Assembly (NCBI GenBank): GCA_028280565.1
Contig: JANQLQ010000160.1
Coordinates: 1-62,628, forward strand
Direction: 5' to 3'
Length of the DNA: 62,628 nucleotides
Origin: Fulvivirga sp.
GTDB taxonomy: Bacteria; Bacteroidota; Bacteroidia; Cytophagales; Cyclobacteriaceae
The position numbers were made by a program, and so were the translations under genes. The notes under the pieces were generated by a model. It was not told the DNA's origin. It was given only the letters and a program-made list of their open reading frames with translations, and searched no databases. This document shows, piece by piece, positions 13,254-62,555 of the stretch (within the stretch, counting starts at the first letter, position 1; every line of letters begins with the position of its first letter).

Positions 13254-13497
13254 GTGATAAAATTTAATTTTGGGCGTATACCGTGAATAGTGAAAGTATT
13301 ATATGTGCTCGTTTTCGGATGGGATTCATAATCCGGCAGGCATAGGGGAGCCAATAACTTATTCGTGTGGGTAAAAGTTTTTGCCCAAGAGATAGCCGGA
13401 GATGTTTGCATTACAAATACTGGGGGGTAGCCATACTAAAGTGAATTTAGATTGCACCATGCTAAATGCACTTCGAGGGGGTAGATGAAGGGGCTTC

Positions 13498-13725
13498 AAC
13501 TAGTGCCCATTTAGCACAGTGTAATGCGTACTCATCGAGGCCATAGGATTTGTAATTCGGGCGTTCTCGTTTGTGCCCCATGATCCTATAAAAGGGCGCC
13601 AGGAACAGGGCCCATTTTCCGCACAAAACACACTGCCAAATCCCTGTAGGCCACTTACGCACAGTCCTCAAATGTGCCGCGCTGTTCCTGGATGTCCCCC
13701 TCCGTACGCCACTTGAATTTTCAAC
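13498..13725 (+). repeat. R1 repeat copy A (module 1 joined directly to module 3)
   Basis: Module 1 (13498-13597: AACTAGTGCCCATTTAGC through GATCCTATAAAAG) runs without a break into module 3 (GGCGCCAGG, CCCATTTTCC, CTCAAATGTGCCGCGCTGTT, CACTTGAATTTTCAAC). Module 2, present in copies C and F, is absent. Small open frames on both strands here are shadows of the repeat. Confidence 0.75.
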
Positions 13726-46702: not shown

Positions 46703-47131
46703 CTAGCCTAGTGCGTATTTAGCGCAAAGTAATGTGTACTTATCGAGGCCATAGGATTTGTAATCCGGGAGTTCTTGTTTGTGACCATGATCTTATAAAA
46801 GAGTGTCTTTGAAAATTACCTTTGATCGTAGAACGCTCAATTTTGGCAAGTTAGGCTATTTTTTTAAGATGTTTCGGGTAATGCCAGCCTCTCAATGAGC
46901 AGTTTAATCGGAATTTCGAGGTTCTAAGCCCAGTTTTCATTTTCTTTTGCGCGCCCATGCCATAGGCATCCTCTCGGGGAAAGAAAACGAAACAAAAAAA
47001 AGGACCCAGCAACCAAGTCCAATTCCCCCTCGAACGTGCTATCCAGCCCCTATGTGCCGCTTACGCACATGCCTCAAATGTGCCGCGCTGTTCCTGGATG
47101 TCCCCACTCCATACGCCACTTTAATTTTAAT
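46703..47131 (+). repeat. R1 repeat copy C (modules 1, 2 and 3)
   Basis: The most complete copy. Module 1 is 46703-46808 (CTAGTGCGTATTTAGCGC, GGATTTGTAATCCGGG, TTATAAAAGAG). Modules 2-3 are 46809-47131, opening TTGAAAATTACC and ending TTTAATTTTAATG. They include TGTTTCGGGTAATGCCAGCC, CATTTTCTTTTGCGCGCCC, an ATGCC-ATA-GGCAT hairpin and CTCAAATGTGCCGCGCTGTT. The copy fills most of the 630-bp gap; the rest shows nothing recognisable. Confidence 0.8.
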
Positions 47132-50564: not shown

Positions 50565-50761
50565 TAGTGTTAGGTTAAATTAAATTATGACGGTTAGCTA
50601 TTTTTTCCAGCCTCGTTCTTAAAGTCGGCAGTTGGCAATAGCCAACCCTATTTTTTTGCCTACTGCCCTTTGCCTATTGCCGACTGATCGAGAACCTCAC
50701 AATACCTCAAACCTACTCATCCTCTGCCCGACACGTCATTTGAGGTTTAACTTAATACTAG
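50565..50761 (+). repeat. R2 repeat, complete copy 1 of tandem pair
   Basis: The left end is TTAGTGTTAGGTTAAATTAA and the right end TGAGGTTTAACTTAATACTAG-type. Between them are TAGCTATTTTTTCCAGCCTC, AAGTCGGCAGTTGGCAATAG, TTTGCCTACTGCCCTTTGCC and a CTGATCGAGAACCT segment. GGCAGTTGGCAA-type and TTGCC-type arms can fold into a hairpin. The left end is 9 bp upstream of the MFS start. Confidence 0.8.
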
Positions 50762-50964
50762 TGTTAAGTTAAAGTATAATTGGACGGTTAGCTATTTTTA
50801 CCAATCCCGCTCTTAAAGTCGGCAGTTGGCAATGTCCAATCTGCAACCCCCTATTTTTTTGCCAACTGCCCTTTGCCGATTGCCGACTGATCGAGAACCT
50901 TCCAATACCTCAAACCTACTCGTTCCGTACCTGGTACGTCATTTGAGGCTTAACTTATCACTAG
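50758..50964 (+). repeat. R2 repeat, complete copy 2 of tandem pair
   Basis: It begins CTAGTGTTAAGTTAAAG, sharing CTAG with the end of copy 1, and ends GGCTTAACTTATCACTAG. The terminal inverted repeat is CTAGTG(T/A)TAAGTTaa. The 207-bp body matches copy 1 with substitutions. The arms AGTTGGCAATG and TTTGCCAACTGCC are complementary. Confidence 0.85.
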
Positions 50965-51412
50965 GACTACTTTGCCAAGTTTAATAATTGATACTCGAGG
51001 TTTGTAATTTTAACCCTAGTGCCAGCGAGTTGCAAAGGATGGGTGATCAACCTCCTATTCTAAATCCATCCAAAACCTATACCTAAGAACGTCATTCCTT
51101 ACTCTCTAACCTCGTCATTCCTTGCAGCCTGTGTGTTGGGCTAGGCGTGACAAGGAATCTGCGAAGTCGTGAAACGAAAACCAGTACACCAAAAAAGGTT
51201 CACGTTCAACGACACAGCAGATTCCTGCTCTCGCGCATTGCTCCCTGCAAGGCTGGCAGGAATGACGATAAAAAAGGTTCTTTTCGTTTTTGATAAGGAT
51301 ATCCAACGGGCTTCCTTATCGTTAAATCCCTGTCTTTAAATAATTGAATGTGACAAACTAGAATTAGTTACTAGTAGCGCCTGTAACATTAGACAACAGC
51401 AATGATAACGCC
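50965..51412. other. Intergenic region after the R2 pair
   Basis: Apart from R3 at 51113-51267, no gene, terminator or further repeat was recognised in this 448-bp stretch between MFS and the next minus-strand gene. Confidence 0.4.
51113..51267. repeat. R3 palindromic repeat
   Basis: It opens CGTCATTCCTTGCAGCCTG and closes CAAGGCTGGCAGGAATGACG, which are near-perfect reverse complements. Inner arms GGAATCTGC and GCAGATTCC also pair, giving a long hairpin of about 155 bp. A small frame inside it is a shadow. A related partial sequence lies at 18569-18655. Confidence 0.7.
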
Positions 51413-58939: not shown

Positions 58940-59656
58940 GTGCGGCGCAAATCCGAAAAGTTTCGATTCAAGCAATTTTCCGTGAGTCATACTAAGAGTC
59001 CTATGAAGGTAGGGACTGACGGGGTGCTGCTCGGGGCATGGGTGGAAAATAACGGGGAAAAGCGGATCCTGGATGTAGGCACCGGTACAGGCTTGGTGGC
59101 ACTTATGCTCGCCCAGCGTTTTCCACAAGCGATGATAAAGGGAATAGATATCGAAAAAGATGCCGTGGAAGAAGCAAAAGAAAACGTTGAGCTTAGTCCA
59201 TGGCAAGATAGGCTGGCAGTAGAGCAGGTGTCCTTGCAGAATTATGCGAACCGGGGTGAACATTTTGACCTGGTCGTTTCCAATCCTCCCTATTTCACCA
59301 ATGGTACACAGTCTCCCAGCATTACACGGCATCGTGCGCGGCATTCCGAAACGTTGAGCTACACGGATTTAGCCCAGTGCAGTGAAAGGGTACTGAACCC
59401 TTGGGGTACATTAGCGGTAATCCTGCCGGCCCCTTCGAGGGATACTTTTGTGGAACAGGCGAAACGCTGTGACCTGTATTTATGGAGAATACTCAATTTT
59501 AGACCTAAGCCTTCTAAGGAAATAGAGCGCGTTCTGCTCCAGTTTGGGAGAACGCAGGAATCCATACGCGAAGAAAACCTATGCCAGTATGACGAAACCG
59601 GCAAATGGTCCAGTGCCTACCAGGCGCTGACCATAGAATACTACTTGAACCTGTAA
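58940..59656 (+). CDS. tRNA1(Val) adenine(37)-N6-methyltransferase-like (TrmN6/YfiC)
   Basis: 238 residues from GTG 58940. The MTS-type methyltransferase fold is seen: the SAM-binding loop RILDVGTGTGLVALMLAQR, DIEKDAVEEA and the N6-adenine NPPY motif (DLVVSNPPYF, about residue 118). The N-terminal FRFKQFSVSHTKSPMKVGTD matches TrmN6 proteins, which methylate A37 of tRNA1-Val. The assignment to tRNA rather than another nucleic acid rests on family resemblance. Confidence 0.85.
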   Translation: MRRKSEKFRFKQFSVSHTKSPMKVGTDGVLLGAWVENNGEKRILDVGTGTGLVALMLAQRFPQAMIKGIDIEKDAVEEAKENVELSPWQDRLAVEQVSLQNYANRGEHFDLVVSNPPYFTNGTQSPSITRHRARHSETLSYTDLAQCSERVLNPWGTLAVILPAPSRDTFVEQAKRCDLYLWRILNFRPKPSKEIERVLLQFGRTQESIREENLCQYDETGKWSSAYQALTIEYYLNL

Positions 59657-59977
59657 GTTTATCGCTAAATAAGACCGGAAGGAAATACAGCTACACTCTC
59701 ATTGCCATCCTTGCCTACGGCTGCCACGCCAAATAAATAGCTATCGATCACGATGCCTTCGATTGTGAATTCATTGACATTTCCTGCATATCTTTCGTAT
59801 TGCCATTGTGGTTACGTAGTTTCTCTCCAATGGATCTTGTAGCCAGTACGTTGGGTGCCTCCTGTTTTATTCCATCGTAAGGTGGTAGAGGTGAGTACAC
59901 CTCCAAGTCATTCCCACATTTGCGAGAGACTTGTTCGAATTGCGATTTGATCCATCTTCTTGCTGCCCCCTATACCC

Positions 59978-60520
59978 CAAGTGTTAAGCTAAGTGTAATT
60001 AGAAATAGCTATTTTTTCCAGTCTCGTTATTGAAACGTCCTTGAAAATTAGGTTTGATAGGAAAGCGTTTAATTTTGACAAATTAGGATAAATTTTCAAA
60101 ATGTTTCGGGTAATGCCAGCCTTGCAATGAGCAGTTTAAGCGGGATTTTGCGGTTCTAAGTCCAGTTTTCATTTTCTTTTGCACGCCCATGCCATAGGCA
60201 TCCCTTCGGGAAAAGAAAACGAAACAAAAGAAAAGGGCGCCAGCAACAAAGCCCATTTTCCGCGCAAAACGCACTACCCAACCCCTATAGGCCGCTTGCC
60301 CACAGGCCTCAAATGTGCCGTGCTGTTCCTGGGTGTATCCCCTCCATACGCCACTTTAATTTTCAATGATCCCCTTCTTAAAGTCAGCAATTGGCAAGGA
60401 GCAATCTTATATTTTTTGCCTACTGCCTTTTGCCAACTGCCTACTGATCGAGAACCTTACAACACCTCAAGCATATTATCCTGTACCCGGCACGTCATTT
60501 GTAGCTTAACTTAACACCAG
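59978..60520 (+). repeat. R2 repeat copy inside the M28 pseudogene, split by R1
   Basis: The left part is 59978-60028 (CAAGTGTTAAGCTAAGTG, ATAGCTATTTTTTCCAGTCT) and the right part 60375-60520 (TTCTTAAAGTCAGCAATTGG, CTGCCTACTGATCGAGAACC, GTAGCTTAACTTAACACCAG). The two halves are an ordinary R2 if the R1 between them is removed. Confidence 0.8.
60029..60374 (+). repeat. R1 repeat copy D (modules 2 and 3) inserted in R2
   Basis: It starts near ATTGAAACGTCCTTGAAAAT and ends near TTTAATTTTCAATGATCCCC. Inner ends TTGAAAATTA (60041-60050) and TAATTTTCAA (60357-60366) are exact reverse complements. A possible TT target duplication flanks the copy. It includes TTCATTTTCTTTTGCACGCC, the ATGCC-ATA-GGCAT hairpin and CTCAAATGTGCCGTGCTGTT. 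Confidence 0.8.
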
Positions 60521-60715
60521 TGTTAGAGAGGGTATCGGGCAAGGTATGTCTCGTCCCGAAATCGGCGAGCGCATTGACATCTTTTTCCAGTCGTTCTGTC
60601 GATACTGTAGAGATGGTCTCGTAATGTCTTAGGTCACATGCGGGCGGCCAGATTCGGGAATGAGCGGGGGAAGATAATAGCAATTGGAATGAAAAAATGT
60701 GAATAAAACCCTCAT

Positions 60716-61983: not shown

Positions 61984-62293
61984 CGTTCTTGAAAATTATC
62001 TTTGACAATAAAACGCTTAATTTTGGTAAATCAGGCTACATTTTTACAATGTTTCGGGTAGTGGGCACCTCTCAATGAGCAGTATACGCGGTATTATGTG
62101 GTTCTAAGCCTGGTTTTCATTTTCTTTTGCGCGCCCAAAAGAAAACGAAACAAAAGAAAAGGGCGCCAGGAACCAAGCCCATTTTCCGCGCTGAACGCAC
62201 TACCCAACCCCTATAGGCCGCTTGCCCACGGGCCTCAAATGTGCCGCGCTGTTCCTGGATGTCCCCCCTCCATACGCCACTTGAATTTTCAAC
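61984..62293 (+). repeat. R1 repeat copy E (modules 2 and 3)
   Basis: It opens with TTCTTGAAAATTATC and ends CACTTGAATTTTCAAC. It has a perfect 10-bp hairpin TTTTCTTTTG (62120-62129)/CAAAAGAAAA (62136-62145). The 22-bp ATGCC-GGCAT insert of copies C and D is absent, leaving a 6-nt loop. The rest matches module 3. Confidence 0.8.
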
Positions 62294-62303
62294 TCTTCAC
62301 CCT

Positions 62304-62555
62304 CAACTAGTGCGCATTTAGCGCAGCGTAATGCGTACTTATCGTAGCAATAGGATTTGTAATCCGGGCGTTGTCGTTTGTGCCCCACGATCCTATAAAA
62401 GTGCATCCTTCAAAATTAGCTTTGATCGTAGGAAGTTTAATTTTGGAAAATTAGGCTACATTTTTAGAGTGTTTCGGGTAATGCTATCTTCGCAATGAGC
62501 AGTATACGCGGGACTTTGTGGTTCTAAGTCCAGTTTTCATTTTCTTTTGCGCGCC
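62304..62555 (+). repeat. R1 repeat copy F (module 1 and truncated module 2)
   Basis: It begins CAACTAGTGCGCATTTAGC (module 1), passes GATCCTATAAAAG to TCCTTCAAAATTAGC (module 2) and stops at CTTTTGCGCGCC. The last 73 bp of the window (62556-62628) are of different origin and unassigned. Confidence 0.75.

Follow-up and report, generated by a model that had tools for sequence, protein, structure and literature searches.

Architecture of the locus

The stretch of DNA analysed here, hereafter the window, is a contig of 62,628 nt from Fulvivirga sp. (JANQLQ010000160.1, assembly GCA_028280565.1). Close to its right-hand end, next to a TrmN6-like methyltransferase gene, lie the remnants of a gene for an M28-type peptidase, and between them sits a member of a short repeat family, R2, which in turn holds a member of a second family, R1. 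The features are as follows.

58940–59656, plus strand: TrmN6-like methyltransferase gene, the convergent neighbour, used as synteny anchor
59662–59904, minus strand: C-terminal remnant of the M28 gene (orthologue residues 373–453) with stop codons; 74% identical to the G010 orthologue in tblastn (E 4e-37)
59898–59977, minus strand: part of the M28 gene left on the downstream side of the insert (orthologue residues ~67–93), its frame shifted by a 1-nt insertion; placed by tblastn and flank join
59978–59981, no strand: CAAG, R2-flanking 4-mer, one half of a 4-nt duplication; joins to the three orthologues score best when exactly 4 nt are removed
59982–60516, plus strand: R2 carrying R1 (the nest), 535 nt, ends TGTTAAG / CTTAACA, left end TGTTAAG at 59982
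60027–60033, plus strand: TTATTGA, 7-nt target duplication of R1, left-hand copy, read from the sequence; duplications of the same length occur at other R1 copies
60034–60374, plus strand: R1 element, inverted ends AACGTCCTTGAAAATTA / TAATTTTCAATGATCCCC
60375–60381, plus strand: TTCTTAA, 7-nt target duplication of R1, right-hand copy, read from the sequence
60517–60520, no strand: CCAG, 4-mer on the other flank of R2, the second half of the 4-nt duplication, from the orthologue-anchored join
60519–60692, minus strand: N-terminal remnant of the M28 gene (orthologue residues 8–66), frameshifted near its start; tblastn E 3e-17, 59% identity

The arrangement of R1 within R2 within an M28 remnant is confirmed by the window sequence together with copies of the elements elsewhere. 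Deletion of positions 60027–60374 leaves AGTCTCG followed by TTCTTAAAG, the same as in plain R2 copies. An earlier, sequence-only reading of the window had restored R2 by removing 60029–60374; the nesting that it described stands, but its boundary is a few nucleotides off, with 60029 falling inside the left duplication. The two copies of the R1 duplication, TTATTGA and TTCTTAA, are identical at five of seven positions. The longest open reading frame in the insert encodes 111 residues and spans both R1 and R2, and there is no transposase gene inside. Elsewhere in the window, at positions 1–2437, a unit of 237 nt is repeated ten times in tandem, the copies being 79–88% alike.

The M28 gene and its empty site

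The M28 orthologue of G010, a genome of the same genus, has 453 residues and matches the minus strand of the window from 60692 to 59662 in three tblastn segments, i.e., residues 8–66 (E 3e-17), 62–93 (E 2e-9) and 373–453 (E 4e-37). In this intact protein the peptidase family PF04389 occupies residues 118–321 (71.1 bits; family cut-off 21.3), and the window copy is devoid of codons ~94–372, i.e., of the entire M28 domain, in addition to carrying frameshifts and stop codons. A Pfam scan of the bare window fragments yielded no M28 match, three of the four fragments, including both N-terminal pieces, being without any match; the C-terminal remnant showed an fn3-like match (E 0.00095) under the family cut-off.

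An uninterrupted M28 gene of 451–453 codons, convergent with the TrmN6-like gene, is present in three species of the same genus, G010, G013 and G003, out of five relatives whose locus was compared; a gene of M28 length is absent from the locus in G014 and G002 in the same five-relative comparison. Beyond the M28 gene, G010, G013 and G003 carry a GNAT-like and an RRM-like gene, as does the window; the labels TrmN6, GNAT and RRM are provisional ones, assigned by eye rather than by family search. M28 paralogues in the own genome were considered as a source as well: the longest frames of six PF04389 matches were read and three of them were compared with the locus by tblastn, which gave nothing convincing among the matches listed.

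The flanks of 59982–60516 were joined after removal of 0–8 nt of the downstream flank, and each join was scored against the three orthologues. A trial duplication of 4 nt scored best for every one of them (25, 30 and 27), and the corresponding join aligns through the junction, with one extra nucleotide a few bases downstream that represents the frameshift. On the gene strand the duplicated 4-mer reads CTGG/CTTG, which is akin to the CTAG found at many R2 copies. Since the best join for all three orthologues is that from which 59982–60516 and a single 4-nt copy have been taken out, the insert is bounded by the ends of R2 itself. For a bacterial transposon without genes, the empty site is thus defined here to the nucleotide by comparison with orthologues.

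Several proposals of the sequence-only reading are thereby borne out: that the peptidase parts belong to one M28-type gene (all of them match the single G010 orthologue with its PF04389 domain), that removal of R2 rejoins them, and that the gene is dead, with frameshifts, stops and loss of the M28 domain all observed. The comparison that it recommended, with a relative carrying an uninterrupted M28 gene at this locus, turned up three such genomes. The insertion of the nest may well be causally linked to the death of the gene.

The R1 family

At least 44 matches to R1 were found in the own genome (40 of 461 candidates scored). Most of the 52 full-length copies measure 320–348 nt; the inverted terminal repeats across copies read GGGCGTCCTTGAAAATTA / GAATTTTCAATGATGCCC, with ends formed by GGGCRTCCTTGAAAATTA and its counterpart, and the duplicated 7-nt target is T/A-rich. 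The ends could be placed in 41 copies, 32 of which are non-nested, and among these 32, seven show at least six of seven matching flank bases in the best of a few registers, as against a mean of 0.9 and a maximum of 4 on permutation (0 of 1000 as high); a clear 7-nt duplication is missing in the other 25. In a fixed-register test that included nests, the value for 6 nt was 0.411, compared with a permuted mean of 0.342, and is not decisive alone because it lies below the permuted maximum of 0.431; at 7 nt the value was 0.380 against a permuted maximum of 0.408.

When 38 relatives were searched, R1 matches were obtained in eight genomes, the own genome included. G003 has two R1 relatives (~66–69% identity) that lie, as judged by eye, between TAGATA and TAACTTA repeats. 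A core of R1 (query positions 183–235) is ~81–83% alike at L072 and other loci of G027, a genome from another family of the order, and so the core may predate the ends of the element. One R1 copy (G000:C233:12493–12814) is flanked by an imperfect direct repeat of ~24 nt, far above the usual 7. A third family, R3 (~100 nt), adjoins R1 ends on either side (window positions 62303–62404, 46704–46805 and 13496–13597), and R1-R3-R1 arrays are seen at window positions 61984–62555 and at C125:24443–25158.

The R2 family

R2 measures ~190–205 nt as a rule, the lengths in 41 copies extending from 176 to 212 nt, and has inverted terminal repeats TGTTAAGTTAAG / CTTAACTTAACA that sit at CTAG-like 4-nt sites. 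The own genome holds at least 46 R2 matches (40 of 443 candidates scored), and AGTGTTAAGTTAAG occurs, within two mismatches, at 355 places against 90 for a reversed control. The flanking 4-mers are unequal at many copies, and the CTAG palindrome is indistinguishable from the element ends; 4 nt is the length that fits best at the M28 site. Four of 148 genomes of the order gave a match, which beyond the own genome consists of short stretches only. Within the genus, 5 of 15 genomes gave R2 matches, with one near-full copy (87%) in G010, partial to full copies (~71–80%) in G013 and short stretches only in G001 and G014.

In a sample of 1.16 Mb, blastn detected 57 pieces of R1, 65 of R2 and 15 of R3; these are pieces rather than elements, and the sample is not unbiased, as its contigs were partly chosen because they were known to carry copies. 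At window positions 50567–50964 two R2 copies stand head to tail with a single CTAG common to both, which looks like an insertion of the second copy into the end of the first. The ends of R2 often adjoin a further repeat starting CTAGGACTACTTT (L029, L038, L039 and window positions 50961–50985).

The nest recurs at other loci

The left junction of R1 within R2 is found, within three mismatches, at 11 places, and the reversed control gave none. A total of 17 possible nest places were inspected, and seven of them have the left part of R2, R1 and the right part of R2 in order, i.e., the window, C2, C243, C212, C9, C132 and C222; the remaining candidates are cut by contig ends, have deletions or show R2 on one side only. 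Six of the seven whole nests have R2-type ends on both sides, the right end of C222 not being R2-like, and the outer 4-mers of the six read CAAG/CCAG, CTAG/CTAG, CCGG/CAAG, ATAG/CTGG, CTGG/CTAG and CTGG/CTAG. These outer 4-mers are identical in only one of the seven nests. The outer flanks are mutually unlike, save for one repeat (left of C222 and right of C243, 89% over 205 nt), and pairwise identity among the whole nests amounts to 77–86%.

The nests also share sequence variants on both sides of the junction. R1 copies with R2 on their left begin with AAA in seven of eight cases by script, the eighth having been misplaced and reading AAACTTAG by eye, whereas among the other R1 copies this start is seen in 1 of 44 (three unplaceable), in a copy that has R2 on its right; most of them start with GGG or a near variant. 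On the R2 side, a G stands ~9 nt to the left of the junction in 12 of 13 nests, compared with 6 of 40 plain R2 copies (Fisher p 8e-7); a 41st plain copy was left out because its context was poor. The pattern with which nests were collected did not cover this base; it did cover the AAA start, yet most nests were also found by unguided searches.

In a careful R1 tree of 55 rows, from which add_L217 was left out as a long branch, the nested R1 copies need four label changes compared with 11.0 after shuffling (0 of 500 as low). They form one group in 0 of 200 bootstrap trees, and the well-supported branches force three changes; a single group is nevertheless not rejected, with p 0.19 when all 12 rows are constrained together and 0.35 when L219 is omitted. 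Clustering of the nests is barely seen in the R2 tree, with five changes against 6.6 after shuffling (20 of 500 as low); a single clade is not rejected there either (p 0.175).

Order of insertion events

According to the sequence-only reading, R2 struck the gene first and R1 then struck R2. Our data do not lend support to this order: the nest turns up again, junction included, in different surroundings, and the nests share variants of both R1 and R2. We instead regard R1 and R2 as MITE-like non-autonomous families and consider it probable, at roughly 0.77, that R1 was already in R2 when the nest landed in the M28 gene as one enlarged R2. The recurrence of the junction, the R2-type outer ends and the shared variants suggest that R1 probably entered R2 elsewhere, and that either copying of the whole nest or gene conversion then multiplied it.

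The proposed course of events would begin with an R1 copy entering an R2 copy at TTCTTAA, earlier and at another place. The nest, retaining the outer ends of R2, would then have spread to further sites as a single enlarged R2, and one of these copies would have inserted into the M28 gene with duplication of CTNG. Loss of the catalytic domain, frameshifts and stops are further changes to this gene. A transposase acting on the R2 ends presumably moved the entire nest, and this enzyme probably acted in trans.

Gene conversion may also have acted at the M28 locus itself, in that the gene first received a plain R2, which later gained its R1 by recombination with a nested R2 elsewhere. The R2 halves of the nests do not cluster as whole sequences while the variant adjacent to the junction does, and conversion could have carried this variant along, since it lies only ~9 nt from the junction; the mosaic neighbours, in which R1 is bordered by R2 at one end and by R3 or other DNA at the opposite end, point in the same direction. 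However, with copies that are only ~77–86% alike, conversion that often extends across a 340-nt stretch not shared by the partners becomes less likely, and nests at several sites have kept both outer ends of R2, so that we regard this course as unlikely.

The insertion of a plain R2 into the M28 gene, followed by a local transposition of R1 into that same R2, accounts for the nesting and for both duplications. The drift of the left R1 duplication in the window (TTATTGA) away from TTCTTAA is likewise compatible with it, and implies that the R1 insertion seen here is not recent. Nevertheless, such a course requires either that R1, each time with its ends altered in the same way, struck one and the same base of R2 over and over, or that the window locus was the founder of all nests, and the latter is argued against by TTGAAACG, which is common to the window nest and the C3 nest; two local events are thus very improbable. 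A hot spot in R2 that R1 entered many times independently would suit the preference of R1 for T/A-rich 7-nt targets, the different R1 subtype in nest L219 and the five R1 copies classed with a reversed R2-like flank, but it is highly unlikely in view of the AAA start and the R2 variant that the nests have in common. An occasional independent entry of R1 into R2 may nevertheless have occurred, e.g., at L219.

With R1 already residing in R2 upon landing, as we prefer, the nesting at this locus gives no local order for two events. The recurring nest shows that nesting alone does not fix the local order of events, and the common inference made in the sequence-only reading probably fails here because the nest itself was multiplied.

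A near-palindromic element of 163 nt, present at four loci (C147, C197, C211 and C75; L251, L252, L253 and L254), has the first 14 nt of R2 at both of its ends, which fits a single enzyme serving several cargoes. It is conceivable, at somewhat less than even odds, that the R2 ends constitute a platform for cargo, whereby one unseen R2-type enzyme would copy plain R2, R2 carrying R1 and the 163-nt near-palindrome, and one gene-less transposon would ride on another so that both spread.

Mobility and relation to known elements

The sequence-only reading took R1 and R2 to be mobile non-coding families that lack any transposase, and this is supported. Both have inverted terminal repeats and a high copy number, and R1 has 7-nt duplications. 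Both elements work like bacterial MITEs. Pairs of ends set further apart were sought in the 1.16-Mb sample, and no transposase was recognised by eye among the open reading frames of one candidate in C125 and of three loci elsewhere. The C125 candidate (C125:10329–13209), which has R2-like ends, was rejected as an autonomous partner, the genes inside it looking ordinary by eye.

Members of the IS481 family have TGT...ACA ends and CTAG-type targets. R2 resembles them in its TGT...ACA ends and its CTAG-like sites, a likeness at the level of general features. An IS481-family transposase with R2 ends was not found in the own genome, which has two IS481-like matches, the better at 55.7 bits against a cut-off of 224, and neither is enclosed by paired R2-like ends within three mismatches, a search that a partner lost or lying in an assembly gap would escape.

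MITEPsy1 of Pseudomonas syringae is described, in the accessible part of its report, as an element of 100 nt with ends GGAAGGTCTGAAAAAGCC that targets CTAG or YTAA and duplicates 4 nt there, that is thought to derive from ISPsy2, that was trapped while moving and of which one copy lies inside an IS element (PMC3189936). As far as this account goes, it shares with R1 and R2 the short length, the lack of a transposase, the inverted ends and a target duplication, which for R2 is a probable one, and its 4-nt CTAG-type site is like the CTAG/CTNG of R2; it differs in its ends and length and in having a presumed parent, ISPsy2, whereas no parent was found for R1 and R2 (PMC3189936). In Porphyromonas gingivalis, which like the window genome belongs to the Bacteroidetes, the accessible part of another report describes BrickBuilt and MITE239, MITE464 and MITE700 as multi-copy elements with IS-like ends that adjoin other repeats (PMC4596501). 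On that description their terminal sequences differ from those of R1 and R2, they number ~10–20 copies each compared with far more R1 and R2 candidates here, and BrickBuilt contains a 23-nt minisatellite, which R1 and R2 do not (PMC4596501). R1 and R2 were not met in the MITE literature searched, in which the comparison was one of text and not of sequence. As far as this search goes they are new families, of a kind that is already known, i.e., bacterial MITEs, including those of Bacteroidetes and those with 4-nt CTAG duplications.
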